A stretch of 50,160 bases of DNA from Sulfobacillus benefaciens (lineage in GTDB: Bacteria > Bacillota > Sulfobacillia > Sulfobacillales > Sulfobacillaceae), in the NCBI GenBank assembly GCA_003023725.1, contig PXYT01000030.1, forward strand, positions 1 to 50,160. The letters run 5' to 3'. Under the pieces are notes generated by a model. That model was not told the origin of the DNA. It searched no databases and saw nothing but the letters and a program-made list of their open reading frames with translations. Positions 5,526 through 45,339 of this stretch are shown here, one piece after another (the stretch's first letter is position 1; each line of letters starts with the position of its first letter). The translations under genes were made by a program, and so were the position numbers.

Positions 5526-6148
5526 CCCCGTCCTCGGGGCGTAACGTTCAGAACGGGCACGGCGGCAGTGGCGTCAAGTTCAGCCAAACATGGGTTCAAA
5601 CCACCCCAGTCTTCAGCAGGAGCTGGCGGGAAACCGTCAGCTCTATCACTTGACCAGCCTCAGTCGCCGGAATCGACACAGACAGTGATCGTCTCGGGGA
5701 GCGAGCGACTCTGTTCAGTCCGGTATCCCCCTGGAATGCTTCTCCAGTTCCAGGCTCTGAGGTTCTCTCTTCGATGCCAGCTTGGGGTAGCACCGTACCC
5801 CAACCCGTATGGGGTTCCCATTCGTTACTGGTCTCGCCGTAAGCAACACGGGGATTCGGAGCGGAGAAAGGGGCCAAGCGGTCATTCCTCGGGGCCAATA
5901 TGCGAAAACCGGACCGGTCGTGCCACGGTGACAGTGAGTGGGCCGTCGGGATCACCACAGAAACCGGCCTCAATCCGACGACGAGCGACAAACCCTCCCG
6001 CATCCTTCAACGCCGAGACGGGATGGCCCTATACGCAATGGTGCATCAGTGCCTAAGAAGAGAGGGAGCGGCACGCCTCTTCGCCTGGAAGAGCCGCGTG
6101 TCCGAGCCGAAAATTTAGGATGAATCTTTTCCGGCAATGCTTCATCCT
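5526..6148. other. Stem-loop-rich intergenic segment, no gene recognised
   Basis: No convincing protein is found in 5509-6172 on either strand, but palindromes are dense. CCCCG/CGGGG with a 4-nt loop lies at 5526-5539. TTGGGGTA/TACCCCAA is a perfect 8-bp stem with a 6-nt loop at 5782-5803. CACGCCTCTTC pairs with GAAGAG-cc-GCGTG at 6072-6100. AGGATGAA/TTCATCCT is at 6117-6148. The pattern resembles the 3' untranslated end of a TnpB/IS605-type element or another structured RNA, but no coding remnant was found to prove it. Confidence 0.3.
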
Positions 6149-6172
6149 CTGCCGCGCCTTCTTAAGACGCAT

Positions 6173-7027
6173 TCAGTGACAGAACAAGCTCCAGGAGGTT
6201 GCGGCCAGCACGGCTGACGTAGCAAAGGGCATTGCGGCGGCCGAAACCAGTGGATATGTTTCGGGAAATAAACTGACGCTATCACCATCGATAAGCGCGT
6301 TAATCCGGGCCTCCCACACGCTGTTCCAAGCCGGTCCCTCGGAAAATCGCGGGCGCGACTCGTTGCTTAAAGCGTGAACGGTGGTAACCATGGCCTGAAG
6401 TAAAGGATCTTTGGTCTCTTGCCATGCAATGGCAAAACGATCAGCTTGAATCTCCCGTGCCACAAGGTAAACACGGTAGAGAGACTCGATCGGAAGAAAA
6501 GGAAACGCTTTTTGTATCGTCAAAAAAACTTGTTGCAAGGCATAATCATGGCTCCTGGCATGGTGCACTTCGTGGGCCAAAATAGCCTCAAGGCCCGGTC
6601 CGTCAAGAAGCGTGCGAAGGGATTCGGAAATCACAATCGTTGGATGAATAATGCCGTACGTAAAAGCGTCCGGACTGTTCCACATACCGACCTTGACGGA
6701 AACGTTTCGCGGTAGCAGCTTCAACGGAATTTCATCACAAGGGAAAGGCGCCATCCGGGGTCTCACCCGTGCTATGGTGTTCCGGTTGCTTCTAATCACC
6801 CAGGCAATCCCATATCCCAGACGCCAAACATACAGACCGGACAACAATATTAACACCGCCAAGAAGATGAAGAGCCCCGGATGCCCTATCATGGGATGGT
6901 GCATTCGGCTCCAACTCAGATGATGCTCGGTCGTGGCAATAGCCACGCCTAAGAGCAATCCGGGTAGAAGAACCAGAGTAGCCAGCCCCAAAGCCCATGC
7001 ATATGCGGATTTCGACCCTCTATTCAC
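6173..7027 (-). CDS. M56-family (BlaR1/MecR1-type) membrane zinc peptidase without sensor domain
   Basis: 284 aa from a GTG at 7027 that overlaps the BlaI stop codon by 8 nt, a layout typical of translational coupling. The longer frame back to 7132 would overlap blaI by over 100 nt. Hydrophobic segments lie at about 14-31 and 52-72. A cytoplasmic-type linker leads to the zinc site HEVHH (152-156) and a third ligand EIQAD (192-196). A last membrane segment lies near 255-275. Family members cleave the cognate BlaI repressor when triggered. Unlike BlaR1/MecR1 there is no C-terminal penicillin-binding domain, so the signal is unknown. The partner repressor is immediately upstream, and the likely targets are nearby cell-envelope genes. 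Confidence 0.85.
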   Translation of the reverse strand: MNRGSKSAYAWALGLATLVLLPGLLLGVAIATTEHHLSWSRMHHPMIGHPGLFIFLAVLILLSGLYVWRLGYGIAWVIRSNRNTIARVRPRMAPFPCDEIPLKLLPRNVSVKVGMWNSPDAFTYGIIHPTIVISESLRTLLDGPGLEAILAHEVHHARSHDYALQQVFLTIQKAFPFLPIESLYRVYLVAREIQADRFAIAWQETKDPLLQAMVTTVHALSNESRPRFSEGPAWNSVWEARINALIDGDSVSLFPETYPLVSAAAMPFATSAVLAATSWSLFCH

Positions 7028-7400
7028 GGAGTTTTTCTTGAGTTCGAGCACGAACGATAGCCTCCAGTTTAGCCAACGCATTCGGATCCAGTTCATCAAT
7101 CGCGTCCACAAAGTGAACGAGGCAGGATTCACCGAATTCCGACATCAATGTCTCCACCGATTCCATGGCATGGGCTTTCAGAACACTTTCTGCGGGTGCC
7201 AGCCGATAGACATAATGGCGAATGCGGCCTTCGCGAACCAATATTTTCTGGGACACCAAACGATTCATCACGGTCGCCACCGTGTTAACCGATATAGGAT
7301 GATCTTGAGCCACGGTACGGTGCACGCTTTTGACCGTTGACACTCCTTGGCTCCGTATAATGTGAAGAATATGGTTGCGCAAATGGTTTTTTGAAGTCAA
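7020..7400 (-). CDS. BlaI/MecI/CopY-family transcriptional repressor
   Basis: 126 aa from a TTG at 7400 (a nearby TTG a few codons in is an alternative). The N-terminal winged helix is recognisable: HILHIIRSQG, then STVKSVHRTVAQ, then the recognition helix SVNTVATVMNRLVSQKIL, then a beta wing with a GRIRHYVYRL strand. A C-terminal helical dimerisation part carries the region where M56 peptidases normally cut. The gene is co-transcribed with and overlaps the M56 peptidase, and is divergent from the signal peptidase II gene with only about 70 bp between starts. The repressor therefore probably binds there and controls its own operon, perhaps also lspA. Confidence 0.88.
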   Translation of the reverse strand: MTSKNHLRNHILHIIRSQGVSTVKSVHRTVAQDHPISVNTVATVMNRLVSQKILVREGRIRHYVYRLAPAESVLKAHAMESVETLMSEFGESCLVHFVDAIDELDPNALAKLEAIVRARTQEKLRE

Positions 7401-7421
7401 TGACCTACAACCCTCGCATTA

Positions 7422-7450
7422 TCGGCAAAGTTTTTCACGTTTGTTATAGT
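7422..7450 (+). promoter_or_regulatory. Possible promoter of lspA
   Basis: TATAGT at 7445-7450 with a weak TCGGCA at 7422-7427 and 17 nt between them, in the divergent blaI-lspA gap. The ribosome site AGGAGG starts only about 8 nt after the -10 box, so the leader would be extremely short. Confidence 0.3.
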
Positions 7451-7469
7451 GTATCACAGGAGGTAACTT

Positions 7470-7937
7470 ATGATCGCTCACAAGTCAAGGCGTTCGTTAA
7501 TCTATGGGACAGCGCCAGTTCTGTACATGACGATGATGATCCTCGCCTGGCATTACCGCCCCAAAGTCAATCAGCGGGGGATTATTCTCAATCAGGGCAT
7601 AGCTTTTGGCCTCTTATCCCATGTTCCCTCATGGTTTCTGAGTCTGGGGACGCTGGGAGTCATGGTGGTTATGGCCATTTTTCTTTGGCGATGGCCGACC
7701 GTGCGTCTGTCTCTATCGTGGCTGTTGGCTGCGGCCGCGGCCAACTGGACCGACCGGATTTTATGGGGCGGTGTGGTGGATTATTGGCAAATTCGGCCTT
7801 ACCCCTTCATTTTCAATCTTGCCGACGTCGTTCTCCGGCTCGCATCCGTGTTGCTGGTCATTCAGGCTTATCGGCACTTCCGCAGCACACAAACCCGCAC
7901 ACAACCCTCAATGTCTCACCGTTCCTCCAAATCCTGA
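7470..7937 (+). CDS. lspA: Signal peptidase II (lipoprotein signal peptidase)
   Basis: 155 aa. An integral membrane aspartyl protease that removes the signal peptide of prolipoproteins before the lipid-modified Cys. It has four hydrophobic segments and the three conserved family boxes: NQGIAFGLL (41-49), NWTDRILWGGVVDY (92-105, Asp95) and FNLADV (115-120, Asp119). The two Asp residues form the catalytic dyad. The ATG at 7470 has a strong AGGAGG site. Length and motif spacing match the family. It is divergent from a BlaI/M56 pair, an unusual setting for lspA, which is more often beside ileS or a pseudouridine synthase. A lipoprotein that would be a substrate is encoded 2 kb upstream. Confidence 0.92.
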   Translation: MIAHKSRRSLIYGTAPVLYMTMMILAWHYRPKVNQRGIILNQGIAFGLLSHVPSWFLSLGTLGVMVVMAIFLWRWPTVRLSLSWLLAAAAANWTDRILWGGVVDYWQIRPYPFIFNLADVVLRLASVLLVIQAYRHFRSTQTRTQPSMSHRSSKS

Positions 7938-8545
7938 CCACCACACCATACGAAAGTTTCGTCAAACCCGGCAACCGCAGGCATGTAAGACCCATTCTCC
8001 CTGGATAGGAGTCAAGACTCGGCACTTCTGGTGTACGGCGTATTGACTCACTTCCAGACCGTTCGGCAAGGTTTTGCACCGCTTCCATGCCGCGCGCCCT
8101 TTTAGTTGACCTGCTCTAATCCCTTACGGACGCGAAAACTATTTTATACGCTGGGATTTGAAGCCCTCTACTTGTCTTGAACATATCTTGACAATTGCTG
8201 CCTCTCTGTCATATAGCCGCCCACCGCCATACGGCCGACACTGCAGCACAGCTCATCACAAAAGCGGTGGACGGCCCCCTGTGGCTCACTTTTCTCCAGG
8301 CCTTTAGGAAAAGCTGGGCGACGAGAACTGAACAGCAACGCAAAATCTCACTCTCCCCTTGCGACTCAAGTATCCGGTTATCGCCTACCTCTTATGACTT
8401 AATGGCACAGGATCCGGAGCCGCACATGGGTCGTGCGCGAGTTCATGCCGCCGTTGGCCTCAACGTCGGTCGCAGACAAACTTTGACACTGCTCATGGCT
8501 TGGAATAATGCCGCAAAATTTGTGACATGATTTCCCCCTGGGGAT
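7938..8545. other. 600-bp gap without a recognisable gene
   Basis: Short open frames occur on both strands, for example 8195-8530 on the plus strand. None has a ribosome site, family motifs or a protein-like pattern that I can support. No clear terminator hairpin is visible. Confidence 0.4.
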
Positions 8546-10909
8546 TTAGGCATCCGAAATATTTCCTGTGTCGCGTTTCTGGGCCTCTTCAATATGATAT
8601 CCAAACGCGCGATAGCTGGCTTTGCGACGCTTATACATGCGTTGCAGCTGAGGAACATGGATATCAACGTAATCATAAACGACAACGGAGTCCTTGTCGG
8701 CATGGAGACGATGAAGCCGTCCCACGTATTGCTGGATCACGCTGCGCCACGAAACCGGCGCCGCCAGAAACAAGGTGTCCAGGCGGGGGAGATCAAAACC
8801 TTCTCCGACAAGGCGCCCGGTCGCGATCACAACCCGGCCGGCCGGAGGAATCGGACCAGATAGCCTGGACGCGATCTCGTTTCGCTGGCGGGATCCCAAC
8901 TGGCTTTTCAGTATCACGACCTCGTATCCGCCTTCGTGGAGCAGTTCCGCTATCCTGTCTCGTTGATCGGTTCTTTGAGTGAGAACCAACGGCACGCGTC
9001 CTTGACTCAAAGCTTCACGGACATCAGAAGCGATACGATCATTTCGTGCAACACTGCTCGCCAATGCCTGATAGATATCTTGAATGGACCACTCAGAGGC
9101 ATCTCCCTCAAGGCGAAAGTCTGTCATACACGGCCGCACCACATGCTGATACGGGGAGGCAAGAACCTGATCTCTGGTACTGTAGGTAAAACGAATGGGG
9201 CCCAGATGCATAAAGATGATTGGCTCATGACCGTCCTTTCGTACTGGAGTGGCACTAAGGCCCAGCCGGTATAACGAGGAACTGGCATGGAAAATGCGCT
9301 CATAGCGAGGGGACGCAATGTGGTGGCATTCGTCAACGATGACGGCCCCATACTGTGACAAGGCTGTGGAATCTTTCATACGCACCACTGTCTGCACCGT
9401 GGCGATATCTACGGTACCAGTCTGATGTTTCTTCCCTCCCCCCAGTTGCCCGATAGCATCTGGCTGATCAAACTCCAGCGACCAGGACAAATGGTCTATC
9501 CATTGCTTAACCAATGTCAGAGTCGGCACCACGACAAGAGTGTTTACTCCGCGGTGAGCTATAAGATACGCTGCCACCAATGTTTTCCCGAATCCGGTCG
9601 CGGCCTCCACGATTCCTGTTTCGTGAGGAGCCAGAGCGCGGACGGCACGATGCTGTTCCGCCGTCAGCTGCCGGGTAAACTTCACACCGATGGGTCTTCC
9701 GTGGGATCGCTGGTCGTCCACCGAAATGGTAATCCCCTGGGACTCCAGCCATGTCAGCACATTTTCACTAAGAGCACGGGGCAGAGCCAGAAAACTACCC
9801 ATATCATCTGCCAGGGACAGGATCCTCGGTATTTTCCATGTAGAGAAATGCAAACGCTGACGTTCGTAGAACTCCGGGTTGGGAAAAGATGCCATCCGCA
9901 CCAGGTTACGGATTATTCGAATCGGAAGCGTTTCAGTGGGAATCAAAAGCCGGCTTCCTACGAAAACCGTAAGGCGTAGAGGTATCATTTCTTCCCGATT
10001 TGGAGGTTCCGGAGGAAAAAGGTTTTGGATGAGCGGCGACCCGAACTGCGAAGGTTCGAACAATCCCATAGCATCCCACTCACTGGGAGTATCTGCCACA
10101 AGCTCGTCCAACCGCTGGTTTGATAGACGGGTCAGCCTTTGGAGAAACGCCCACTGACTGGAAAATGGCTCACCATCATCTTGAATGAAGACGCTGTTGT
10201 TCTGCCTAAGAGCTTGACCTTGCAAAGGAAGAGCAATGAGGTTACCAAATCCCCCAACCGGCATGGTGTCCTGATTAGGAAAGAATCGATCGTACGATTC
10301 CAGCCGGGCAAATCCCATTTCGCGCGTGGCTTCGGTTAAAATTCGTGTGCCAAGTCGCCGTGCCTGATGAGCTGATACGGGGCTCTCAAAGAAGATCCAC
10401 ACGTGAGCCCCGTTCCCCGACCGTGAACGTTCCAGTGCGGCGGCAATTTGCCAGCGGCGGCACACCGCGAGATAGGCCTGAGCATCGCGAAACCAGTCCG
10501 ACTTGTCGAAGTCGATCACCAGAAACCATGTGCGCTCATCCGGTAAAAGCGGATAGATCCCCACCACCACTTGCCCCCTGAGATGCTGGTAAATAACGTG
10601 GTCTGTCAGCGGAAAAAAATCGTCGGGTGAATAGGGACGTTTTTTCCCCGGTATCCGCAAATGGGGCGCATAGCCGCTTTTGCCCGTTCGGGTATCGGTG
10701 TAGCGAATGGCGTAAACGTCATCCCGACCCCGAAACAGAGACCGGAAGATCCGAATCTTGTCCCGAGTGGACAGATGTATCTCAGGATCCCTGTCGCTTC
10801 CACCTTGTTGGATCTTGCTTAATTTCTCCTTAAGGAGCCTATTTTCCTCAAGAAGCTTCTCATAAGCCGCTACCAGTTCTTCATGGCTCAAGTGATCATA
10901 GCCACTCAT
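8546..10909 (-). CDS. TOTE-type archaeo-eukaryotic primase fused to SF2 helicase
   Basis: 787 aa from the ATG at 10909, which has AAGGGGG seven bases upstream; a TTG seven codons earlier has no such site. Residues 8-35 form a short coiled coil. Residues about 45-250 are an archaeo-eukaryotic primase domain of the TOTE conflict class: VIDFD (131-135, catalytic DxD), SGNGAHVW (164-171, motif II His) and a GGFGNLIALPLQ segment (219-230). Residues about 415-760 are an SF2 helicase: GFGKT (439-443), DECHH (526-530), LSATP (551-555), and a motif VI QYVGRLHR near 740. The nuclease domain often attached to this class is absent. Family knowledge links these proteins to defence against invading DNA/RNA. 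No partner gene is adjacent: BlaI/LspA genes on one side and a dead IS605 element on the other. Confidence 0.85.
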   Translation of the reverse strand: MSGYDHLSHEELVAAYEKLLEENRLLKEKLSKIQQGGSDRDPEIHLSTRDKIRIFRSLFRGRDDVYAIRYTDTRTGKSGYAPHLRIPGKKRPYSPDDFFPLTDHVIYQHLRGQVVVGIYPLLPDERTWFLVIDFDKSDWFRDAQAYLAVCRRWQIAAALERSRSGNGAHVWIFFESPVSAHQARRLGTRILTEATREMGFARLESYDRFFPNQDTMPVGGFGNLIALPLQGQALRQNNSVFIQDDGEPFSSQWAFLQRLTRLSNQRLDELVADTPSEWDAMGLFEPSQFGSPLIQNLFPPEPPNREEMIPLRLTVFVGSRLLIPTETLPIRIIRNLVRMASFPNPEFYERQRLHFSTWKIPRILSLADDMGSFLALPRALSENVLTWLESQGITISVDDQRSHGRPIGVKFTRQLTAEQHRAVRALAPHETGIVEAATGFGKTLVAAYLIAHRGVNTLVVVPTLTLVKQWIDHLSWSLEFDQPDAIGQLGGGKKHQTGTVDIATVQTVVRMKDSTALSQYGAVIVDECHHIASPRYERIFHASSSLYRLGLSATPVRKDGHEPIIFMHLGPIRFTYSTRDQVLASPYQHVVRPCMTDFRLEGDASEWSIQDIYQALASSVARNDRIASDVREALSQGRVPLVLTQRTDQRDRIAELLHEGGYEVVILKSQLGSRQRNEIASRLSGPIPPAGRVVIATGRLVGEGFDLPRLDTLFLAAPVSWRSVIQQYVGRLHRLHADKDSVVVYDYVDIHVPQLQRMYKRRKASYRAFGYHIEEAQKRDTGNISDA

Positions 10910-11327: not shown

Positions 11328-12386
11328 CTACGCTCTGACGTTCCCCGGAAGGAAACCGGATGGTGATACGTGATCCGTGTGGCGACAAGAATCCCCCCAT
11401 GCGTCCCCTTGTTCACCGCACACCCCATCACGATGTGCCTGATAGCCACAGCTGCGACAGTAGTACCTGCGTCCTGCCACCTTGTTGAGATGGCTACGGG
11501 GCGGACACATTTGGGACGTGTGCACTTCACTGATTTTCGCGAGTTGAATCCCCTGGCGACGGCGCTTGTATTCCAAGTATTGTTCCCACGGCCCGAATTC
11601 CAGCGTCCCCACTTCTTGGTGGGTCCTCCGAAATCGGCGATGCCATTTTTTATGGCTGAGGGTGCCGAGATCTCCGGCGCACAAGATCGTGAGGCTGTTG
11701 GCTCTTTTCCACCCCCTAGTGAAACGTGACGATCTGATTCGCGGCGTAATGCAACCCATTGCGCATCACACGTTCAACATTTTGGCTAACGCGGTGCCGC
11801 AAACGGTTGAACCGTTTGCAACGTCGCCAGCCAGATTTGGTCCGTTCCCGCTTTTTTGAAGTTTCGCGAGGGATTTCGCACGGCTTTGGTTGATGGAGAT
11901 CGGAGGCCCCGACCGGATAGGGCTAACGCCTCTTCGCCGTCGAAAACTTTACCCAGATGAATGGCGCCCATATCCAATGCTCCGGCTTTAGACGATTCGG
12001 GAAAAACGGGTTCGGCACGTTCTTGGGTGATGGTCAAGCAGAGCTTACCAAAGCCCAACTCCACTTGTACGACCCGCCCGGTGGGCATGACCGGCTGGGA
12101 AATGTACCCACATAAGTTCACGCCCCCGGCCTCGGAGCACGAGCAGATGCTGATCCTGAATCTTGAGGGCTTGGACCGTCTGCGAGTTCAGCGGAAAGCT
12201 TGTTTGAAATGCGCCTTCAGTGGGGCCGTCTTCGGTTCGAGGCGGCCAATGCCAGCAGCGGCAAAACCGGCGAATCTTGACCACGCGCGTCCACAGGTCG
12301 CCCGCGTTTCGGCGAGCTTCAGACGCCCTTTTTCCTTCCGTCCGGGAAAGGGCAATACGATAGATGAAGACAGTCGTCTCTTGCAT
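11328..12386 (-). pseudogene. tnpB: Decayed tnpB (RNA-guided nuclease ancestor) of an IS200/IS605 element
   Basis: Three minus-strand frames laid end to end rebuild a TnpB. 12386-12180 carries the N-terminal part ending in an HxQTVQAL-like helix. 12121-11786 holds VQVELGFGKLCLTI, then LDMGAIHLG (first RuvC Asp) and the ALSGRGLRS motif. 11759-11328 holds GTLEFGPWEQYLEYKRRRQGI, TSQMCP and YYCRSCGYQAHRDG (third RuvC Asp region). The first zinc-finger pair is damaged (CPPRSH where CPxC is expected). At least two frameshifts and stops make it non-functional. It is divergent from the tnpA relic beginning at 12434, the classical IS605 arrangement. Confidence 0.85.
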
Positions 12387-25213: not shown

Positions 25214-26089
25214 ATGCCGCCCTACGATGATTTGTCCTTAACTCAAAAGAGTCAGGTGACCCCGCAACCGCCCCACGTTGTGCGTCCTTTTTTAAAATGG
25301 GCGGGGGGCAAAGCCCGTTTAGCCCCACAGATTCGCAGCCAATTGCCGCCTGGTTCACGCCTCATTGAACCATTTGCCGGATCCGCTGCGGTGTGGCTTG
25401 CCACCGATTATCCACAGGCCTTGGTAGCTGATGTTAACGTCGATCTGATCATGCTTTATCAAACGCTGCAACGCGAGGGCCCAAAGTTTATTGCCTATTG
25501 TCAAACCTTCTTTACAGATGAAACCAATACGCCCAATGTCTACTACGCATTGCGCCACCAGTTTAACACTACAAAGTGCTTACGTGAAAAGGCGGCACTG
25601 TTTCTCTATCTCAACCGGCATGGATACAACGGCTTATGCCGGTACAATGGGTCAGGAAAATATAATGTGCCTTTCGGACGCTATCGTAAGCCCTATTTTC
25701 CGGAAATGGAAATGCACATGTTTTGGCACAAAGCGCCGCATGCAACTTTTCTTGTCTCGGATTTTCGCACGGTACTCGCCCACGCTCAGCTAGGCGACGT
25801 GGTTTATTGCGACCCGCCATATGTTCCTTTATCGGCAACCGCAAACTTTACCGATTATGCTGCGTCGGGATTTTCTCTTCAGGATCATGACGATTTAGCC
25901 CGGGAAGCCGAACGTTTGGGATCTGAGGGCATTCCCGTTGTCATTTCTAATCACGCCACGCCCTGGACGCGTGCCCGCTATCATCATGCCTCTCAAACTA
26001 TCTTGTCCGTTCCGCGTTCTATCAGTCGCGATGGTTCACGCCGTCAGGCTGTCGATGAAATTATCGCCGTCTTTGGGAAACGTGCCTGA
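25214..26089 (+). CDS. dam: Dam-family DNA adenine N6-methyltransferase, solitary
   Basis: 291 aa, ATG with AAGGAGG seven bases upstream. It methylates adenine N6 in DNA using S-adenosylmethionine. Family motifs in order are PFLKWAGGKARL (25-36, motif X), IEPFAGSAAV (51-60, motif I, cofactor binding), LYLNRHGYNGLCRYNGSGKYNVP (131-153, target-recognition region) and DVVYCDPPYVPL (195-206, motif IV with the catalytic DPPY at 200-203). This order (alpha class) and the D12 signature place it with Dam and M.DpnII-type enzymes, whose usual target is GATC. No restriction endonuclease or specificity gene is beside it, so it is an orphan, perhaps mobile-element derived. Confidence 0.92.
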   Translation: MPPYDDLSLTQKSQVTPQPPHVVRPFLKWAGGKARLAPQIRSQLPPGSRLIEPFAGSAAVWLATDYPQALVADVNVDLIMLYQTLQREGPKFIAYCQTFFTDETNTPNVYYALRHQFNTTKCLREKAALFLYLNRHGYNGLCRYNGSGKYNVPFGRYRKPYFPEMEMHMFWHKAPHATFLVSDFRTVLAHAQLGDVVYCDPPYVPLSATANFTDYAASGFSLQDHDDLAREAERLGSEGIPVVISNHATPWTRARYHHASQTILSVPRSISRDGSRRQAVDEIIAVFGKRA

Positions 26090-37162: not shown

Positions 37163-38591
37163 CCAAATCCTAAATTGCTGAAGACCTAGCGGAGGAAAAA
37201 GTATCGGTTTTGTACATTTCCTCGGAAACCTTGCTAAGTCGGTCCGACATCACCCAGTTGATTGGTGAACGTCGGGTTGGGTTGTTTATCGTGGACGAAG
37301 CTCATATCTTCACCATCTGGGGAAAGGCTTGTCGCTCCGACTATTGGTATCTTGGCACATATCTCAAATGGTTGCGGAAGAGCATGGCTTTTCCCGTGGC
37401 AATATTCACGGCAACCGCTATCTATGGCGGAATCGAGGATATGTACGCACAGACACGCGACAGCCTCAACTTCATCGATCCGATCAGCTACTTTGGATAC
37501 GTTAGGCGAGAGAATTTAGAGATGAAAGATTAAGAGAAAAGATGACTTACCACAAATTCCTTACAACAACTACAAAGGAGATGAAAATGAAAATTCTCCT
37601 TCGGCCGCTCGAGGGATTCGTCGGGATGGGCGAGAAGACCCTAGTATACTTTCCGCTCGTGACCCTGATTGGTCAATTTGGGGCTTTTGCGAATTTGTAT
37701 GGATCGCCTGCTCTAAGGACAAATCTTGTACGGTACTACGGACCGCTGGAAAAAGATGAGAAGCAAGCGAACTACGTCCGGTTTAAGTCAAACGACGCAA
37801 TCATTATGCTTGCCACCAAAGCCTTTGGAATGGGAATCGACATTCCTGACATCAAGAACATTTACCATTTTGCTCCGACAGCCAACGTGTGCGACTATGT
37901 CCAGGAAATCGGCAGGGCAGCTCGGCAGCTAGATGTGGGCTTTGCCTATTTCGACTACCTGCCGCGCGATTTTTCCTATGTGAACCGTCTTCACGGCATC
38001 TCGACGCTCCGAAAGCACCAGCTAGTCCAAGTAATGGAAAAAATCCACAGGATGGCAGAGATTGAGAACTTTCCTCGTCACCTTTTAACCAATTCAGCTG
38101 AATTCAGGCACATTTTCACATTGAAGACCGATGACGATTCGATGTCGACAACAAACTCAAGACGACGCTGTTGGTTATCGAAAGGGACTTTGGTACCACA
38201 ATTGGAATACTCTCCATTGGAATACTCTCCAATTGTGGCACGGCCGAGAAGTTTGTTCGCAATCGAGTATTTCAAGATGGATGCCGAAACGGCTGAAACC
38301 ATTTTACGGTCTTCATTTCGAAGATATTTCTCTCGGGTGGGGAAAACCAATGCCAACGAGATTTTGTACGACTCGGTATTTTCGGTTGATATGACGGGCA
38401 TATGGGAAAACGCCTACCGTTCCTTCTCGTTCACCAAGTTTAAGTATCTATTTCATTCTGTGGATGCCGAACTTAGCTTGAATTTCCTAGCCAACCTATG
38501 GCAGAAGGGTAGTTGGCAAGTGGTGATAGTCTTTCGGGCCCGGTCTTCGGTAAACTTATTGTGTGAAACTCTTGATAATATCGCGGAGTGA
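37163..38591 (+). pseudogene. Truncated, frameshifted SF2 (RecQ-like) helicase
   Basis: Two consecutive plus-strand frames belong together. 37163-37533 has VLYISSETLLSR, then LFIVDEAHIFTIWGKACRSDYWYLG (motif II DEAH plus the W-G-x-x-FR-x-DY block of RecQ-like enzymes) and FTATA (motif III). 37542-38591 has an interrupted linker, then IIMLATKAFGMGIDIPDIKNIYHF (motif V) and YVQEIGRAARQ (motif VI). The Walker A part that should precede is absent, and at least two frameshifts occur near 37515-37580. The second half also contains a 15-bp tandem duplication (LEYSP twice) near 38201-38230. A defence-island helicase is plausible. It is non-functional as it stands. Confidence 0.7.
38201..38230 (+). 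repeat. 15-bp tandem duplication inside a 10-bp inverted repeat
   Basis: The unit ATTGGAATACTCTCC occurs twice in direct succession. The pair is flanked by CCACAATTGG (38196-38205) and CCAATTGTGG (38229-38238), perfect reverse complements, so the segment can fold into a stem with a loop of about 23 nt. It keeps the helicase frame open. Confidence 0.7.
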
Positions 38592-44872: not shown

Positions 44873-45091
44873 TTATACATACAAAGGGATTCCTCCACCG
44901 AGAATTGTTGGTGCAATATGAATGATAAACTCGTCGACTAAGTCGTCACGAAGTCGCGAGATCAGCACGTCGGCACCGCCTACAATCCAACTGTCCTTAG
45001 CAGACTCGGTCTTCAGGGAGGCAGTGAAGATTGCTCTGAAACATTTCATCAAGGCTGAAGGCCACTCAGAGCACACCGGGGCAAGTTTCAA
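44873..45091 (-). pseudogene. Fragment of a RibD_C/dihydrofolate-reductase-family protein
   Basis: The minus-strand frame has SWIVGGADVLISRLRDDLVDEFIIHIAPTILGGGIPLY, the C-terminal part of the YyaP/RibD_C type of reductase (G-G-A-x-L...DLVDEF-x-x-x-x-P-x-x-LG-x-G-x-P-L-F). The N-terminal half with the NADPH-binding start is absent, and the reading frame is lost after the motif; further in-frame pieces reach about 44770. Non-functional. Confidence 0.7.
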
Positions 45092-45339
45092 TTCCTCATA
45101 GGTAGGCTACAATCCGCATTTTGGCTTGATATCAGTGGCTGGTCAATATCTTGTGTTGTGGAGGATATTGGCAATGAGGCGAACAAAAATCCCGAAAGGC
45201 TTGTGGATAAACATCCATGGACCGCCTCCCTCCGTGAGCTGTTGGCAAACACACCGCCGTTTCTATTTGGCTTATCGCACGGCGCCTCTATTGGCGCCAA
45301 CGTCCCAGGACGTTCTCGCCCCGTATATCCCCTGCGTCA

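Follow-up and report, generated by a model that had tools for sequence, protein, structure and literature searches.

We analysed a stretch of 50,160 nucleotides from Sulfobacillus benefaciens (contig PXYT01000030.1, positions 1 to 50,160; the window in what follows). The subject is a gene on its minus strand that encodes a primase-polymerase (Prim-Pol) of the archaeo-eukaryotic primase (AEP) type joined to a superfamily 2 (SF2) helicase. The reading frame starts with an ATG at position 10909 and runs through 787 codons without an internal stop. It is the only AEP-TOTE gene in the genome. The gene and its two parts are:

8546 to 10909, minus strand: AEP Prim-Pol / XPB-like SF2 helicase gene, 787 amino acids (open frame, Pfam, AlphaFold and fold search)
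10103 to 10762, minus strand: AEP-TOTE Prim-Pol domain, residues 50-269, with DFD at 133-135 and SGNGAH at 164-169, without the four-cysteine knuckle (Pfam, alignment, Z 26 to MpCAPP 7nqd)
8570 to 9982, minus strand: XPB-like helicase part, residues ~310-780, including a pre-RecA1 segment that aligns with the archaeal XPB N-terminus (Z 23-24 to archaeal XPB from its first residues; partial match to the XPB NCBIfam model at 391-579)

An earlier note on this DNA, made from the letters alone, had described a complete primase-helicase whose chain ends after the helicase; reading frame, Pfam, motifs and fold search all agree with that description. The Pfam scan placed AEP-TOTE at residues 50-269 (E 3e-83), ResIII at 415-557 (2e-24) and Helicase_C at 636-735 (7e-7), beyond which only the remainder of the RecA2 fold follows before the chain ends. 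The AEP-TOTE match (PF22548) scores 279 bits against a curated cut-off of 27 and spans positions 1-229 of 230. The PADLOC model for CRISPR-associated PrimPol (PDLC01465) gave 278 bits, and NCBIfam yielded only partial matches below threshold, the best being CRISPR-associated primase-polymerase and XPB. The motifs D133-F-D135 and S164-G-N-G-A-H169 are accompanied by the helicase motifs GFGKT (439-443), DECH (526-529) and QQYVGRLHR (726-734). In an alignment of 112 rows, part of which are fragments, D133 and D135 are found in 110 rows; for S164, G167 and H169 the count is 111, and for the helicase residues it is 109-110. The AEP catalytic residues, whose lack of conservation the note had named as one refuting outcome, are conserved. 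Between the window gene and its nearest relative (G002) dN/dS, the ratio of nonsynonymous to synonymous rates, is ~0.10-0.13, a rough value given a dS of ~1.4 with synonymous sites near saturation. In this nearest pair the gene is under purifying selection. It is real and intact, and its predicted product combines a DNA primase and a motor that unwinds DNA in one chain, with all active-site residues present.

An AlphaFold model built from 49 sequences of short-form homologues reached a mean pLDDT of 87.8 and a pTM of 0.77. In the fold search, residues 49-279 superposed on the Prim-Pol domain of the CRISPR-associated Prim-Pol (CAPP) MpCAPP (7nqd; Z 26.0, 1.7 Å over 195 residues). The DFD of the window protein (D133/D135) falls on the DID of MpCAPP, a metal-binding pair, numbered D177/D179 by its authors, that is essential (Zabrady et al. 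2021, PMC8211822). For residues ~310-780 the matches were archaeal and eukaryotic XPB (6p4f_C: Z 23.3, 390 residues, 3.8 Å), with the pre-RecA1 segment included, which places this part within the XPB fold; the other XPB matches have larger root-mean-square deviations from domain motion. The N-terminal helical segment proposed earlier is predicted as a helix at residues 9-34, at a pLDDT of ~80. Neither Pfam nor the fold search revealed a hidden nuclease domain in the chain, although a small domain could escape detection. With residues 49-781 covered by the CAPP and XPB folds together, a nuclease of ordinary size could not be hidden in the chain.

The lack of a nuclease had been regarded as unusual, a view that does not hold. 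GTDB genomes were scanned with an alignment of 16 sequences; at least 554 relatives were confirmed, and the best 80 were kept. We called a protein short when it ends within 40 residues of the aligned helicase and long when its tail exceeds 100 residues. The distribution among the 75 complete proteins of the best 80 is bimodal, with 56 short and 19 tailed. Because this set is biased towards the window protein, an even draw of 398 Bacillota genomes was added; the AEP-TOTE domain occurs in 38 of them, and the 18 complete genes with a helicase are divided into nine short and nine long ones. The tails add 142-201 residues, are of at least two kinds and occur in some clades only. One kind is a phospholipase D (PLD) domain with an HKD motif, confirmed by Pfam (PLDc_2) in one protein from the same taxonomic family as the window (L012). 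The other, with the signature ELDGxQH...RRDRRKD, looks by eye like a candidate PD-(D/E)xK-type nuclease.

On a quick tree of 109 rows, five changes between short and long forms can be counted. The window protein belongs to a fully supported, long-stemmed clade whose eight rows come from its own family and order; all complete members of this clade are short. A zinc knuckle (CxNEW...C.KP..KC..C, residues 80-100 of the AEP domain) is present in most homologues (84 rows with, 23 without) and also changes five times on the tree. As it is missing not only in the window's clade but in several separate lineages, the knuckle is dispensable and its loss is not unique to this clade. Judged from these alignments, the bare primase-helicase is the common form, spread over the tree, and the nuclease tails appear to be optional.

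The homologues lie on mobile carriers, plasmids and islands. A match was present in 105 plasmid records, 46 of them conjugative, and at least 80% of the protein was covered in 90. The annotated plasmid genes encode stand-alone proteins of 786-813 residues, beside transposases, toxin-antitoxin genes or integrases. On two Rhodobacterales plasmids (L195:8297-11720 and L197:8286-11721) the gene and a tandem of three tyrosine recombinase genes are convergent and ~40 bp apart. Of 5426 E. coli genomes, 1714 have a DNA match and 681 contain the greater part of the gene. The E. coli copies that were read form the last gene of an int-AlpA-YfjI-YfjJ island; many are shortened or interrupted by insertion sequences, many islands being otherwise kept, and one strain has an AAA-domain operon of two genes after the gene stump. 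The earlier note had asked whether homologues with the same ending are common and sit in housekeeping contexts: the ending is indeed common, in the plasmid and E. coli stand-alone genes as well, whereas the contexts are mobile and not housekeeping.

The conserved neighbours that had been suggested as a check did not emerge either. At the 80 best loci there is no constant operon partner, and the neighbours cluster in small groups only. The most frequent Pfam and PADLOC neighbour families, counted without a control set, are AbiEii/AbiEi, HTH, Pkinase, Fic and AlbA. Short-form genes within this set are directly adjoined by AbiE, Fic, Schlafen and HTH genes, among others, and no nuclease recurs in their most frequent neighbour families. 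For a nuclease acting in trans, one of the two options offered earlier, no recurrent candidate was thus seen in the frequent neighbour families of the short forms, nor was a partner nuclease seen among the window genes scanned.

The window gene itself is placed between lspA and cydB, ~7.4 kb from the latter. Its direct flanks are as originally described, lspA, which does not belong to the system, and a dead IS605-type element:

7470 to 7937, plus strand: lspA-like signal peptidase II (Peptidase_A8, E 7e-17)
11331 to 11759, minus strand: TnpB remnant of an IS605-type element (Cas12f1-like_TNB over 53 amino acids)

The reading frames adjoining the TnpB remnant have no Pfam match. Elsewhere in the window there is a group II intron (98-1980) with a reverse transcriptase frame on the minus strand (209-1774), and a solitary D12-class adenine DNA methyltransferase (25214-26089) that matches the PADLOC orphan and type II methyltransferase models. 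A truncated helicase (37542-38591) retains only its C-terminal helicase domain and has a 'possible alternative Cas3' model as its top PADLOC match. One CRISPR-DR2-like repeat of 30 nt (45085-45114) stands without an array, 34 kb from the primase-helicase gene.

Within its own family the AEP-TOTE domain was found in 12 of 34 genomes, several copies being split or broken. In the nearest relative (G002, 70-77% identity) the first part of the gene lies ~150 bp downstream of cydB and the remainder at the end of another contig. In a third species (G006) cydB and lspA are ~1.1 kb apart with no primase-helicase gene between them, so that at this shared site the gene is present in some genomes and absent from others. 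Breaks or deletions near residues 72-85 in several copies (G025, G029, and G031, which are L007, L162 and L169) suggest a recurrent break or insertion point.

At loci of relatives (L160:10480-10910, L162:5980-6390, L164:1549-1955 and L161:485-960) an end module with double GGTGACGG motifs lies a few hundred bases from the gene, and DNA similarity between different loci ends at the GGTGACGG motif. The end modules of L160, L162 and L164 contain the 3' half of tRNA-Sec; a complete tRNA gene was rejected, since ARAGORN found none there and only partial tRNA-Sec copies are present. The L162 unit (5986-10600, ~4.6 kb) is bounded on either side by direct repeats ATCCGTCACCAT; a Pfam-confirmed nucleotidyltransferase adjoins the gene, and pieces resembling HepT, ribbon-helix-helix and MazF proteins were read by eye. 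At L164:1551-1563 the left unit end is joined directly to the right one, an arrangement expected of a circle or a tandem copy. The contig has no terminal overlap; a closed circle was therefore rejected and the fused ends may be a tandem junction. It is conceivable, if rather doubtful, that in the own family the gene is cargo of a mobile unit with short direct repeats (core ATCCGTCACCAT), a tRNA-Sec 3'-half copy, many toxin-antitoxin genes and no visible integrase, and that at the same time priming by this clade's knuckle-less Prim-Pol differs from that of the other family members.

Taken together, we lean towards a mobile accessory gene whose single-chain primase-helicase would act in conflict between mobile elements or between phage and host and need no nuclease for it. 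The fold and domain matches, the alignment with the MpCAPP pair, active-site conservation, purifying selection, the wide spread of the short form with its five tail changes, carriage on plasmids and islands, patchiness, and the AbiE, Fic, Schlafen and HTH neighbours of short forms support this reading. The XPB-like part would load on DNA that is distorted, forked or newly entered, and open the duplex, while the Prim-Pol would prime and extend on the strand exposed by the helicase; strand-displacing synthesis is known for CAPPs. Priming and opening together would disturb or convert the replication intermediates of a competing element, and the nuclease tails of some clades would be optional add-ons. 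Several points weigh on the other side. In the literature searched we found no activity or defence phenotype for the primase-helicase form. Neighbouring defence genes were counted without a control set, and four of the AbiE loci are close relatives. In this genus the gene occupies one place, the cydB side, in two species and so looks partly settled. Finally, 50,697 phage records held no full-length homologue, for which reason a phage origin was rejected.

The same mobile carriage could also be understood if the gene were a selfish helper in replication or repair of its carrier, re-priming stalled forks, filling gaps or providing DNA-damage tolerance, and not a defence gene. We regard this as possible, though clearly less probable. 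Conjugative and mobilizable plasmids carry the gene, the E. coli islands hold it beside YfjI/YfjJ, an XPB-like fold is of the lesion- and fork-binding helicase type, and other Prim-Pol families replicate elements (Kazlauskas 2018, PMC5862659). Against it, the gene is terminal or stand-alone cargo where its context is known, with no conserved replication origin or initiator neighbour; many E. coli islands keep their other genes but have lost or truncated this one, and nuclease-like tails have been added in several clades. Of these inferred functions we rank a conflict gene as more likely than a replication helper.

Two further proposals were considered. A CAPP for CRISPR adaptation, working in trans with the host CRISPR system, would be in line with MpCAPP as the nearest solved structure, with the PADLOC score and with a Cas1 gene in the genome. 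That Cas1 gene however belongs to a different contig (C81), the surroundings of the primase-helicase gene showed no cas gene, the lone repeat described above is the sole CRISPR-like match in the window, and most homologues are not beside cas genes; this proposal is very unlikely. Even less can be said for a strict TOTE conflict effector working with TPR, OB-fold and TBP proteins, which is already refuted for this locus. The Pfam domain name AEP-TOTE, repeated by RefSeq, suggests it, and in PMC12458937 (citing Aravind 2022) TOTE stands for TPR, OB, TBP, Effector. TBP (PF00352) is absent from the whole assembly, a 98% complete genome, by a search that was positive in four archaeal controls; the neighbouring window genes scanned with Pfam contain no TPR, OB or TBP domain, TPR and OB not having been searched genome-wide. 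Since the genome lacks TBP, the protein belongs with the Prim-Pols of the AEP-TOTE Pfam family and is not a TOTE system.

The view of a nuclease-free protein of this type as exceptional is thus corrected, the bare form being the common one, and the question shifts from the whereabouts of the nuclease to what priming and unwinding achieve alone, in a family of which about one third of complete E. coli genomes have at least fragments.

Among known systems, the archaeal XPB of the XPB-Bax1 complex (6p4f/6p4o) resembles the helicase part, N-terminal segment included, but lacks a primase and has a nuclease, Bax1, as its partner, of which no counterpart was seen at the window locus. The long forms with PLDc_2 or ELDG-type C-terminal tails share the Prim-Pol and helicase core with the window protein, which lacks the tail. 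From most AEP-domain homologues the window's clade differs by the absence of the four-cysteine insert. That insert is kept in the RefSeq 'TOTE conflict system archaeo-eukaryotic primase domain-containing protein' of E. coli (WP_000233452.1, 786 amino acids), which is alike in architecture, length and ending (~41-42% identity) but, unlike the window protein, is encoded in an int-AlpA-YfjI island. Zabrady et al. (2021, PMC8211822) described CAPP-Helicase as the third type of class CAPP_A, and the helicase type as the most prevalent non-CRISPR CAPP architecture, typically in mobile elements. With CAPP-Helicase and its non-CRISPR homologues the window protein shares the fold and the catalytic pair, whereas the location inside a CRISPR-cas operon that marks the CAPP_A helicase type is not found here. 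The window protein is thus a further non-CRISPR CAPP-Helicase or AEP-TOTE protein, a form already in print and named by NCBI.
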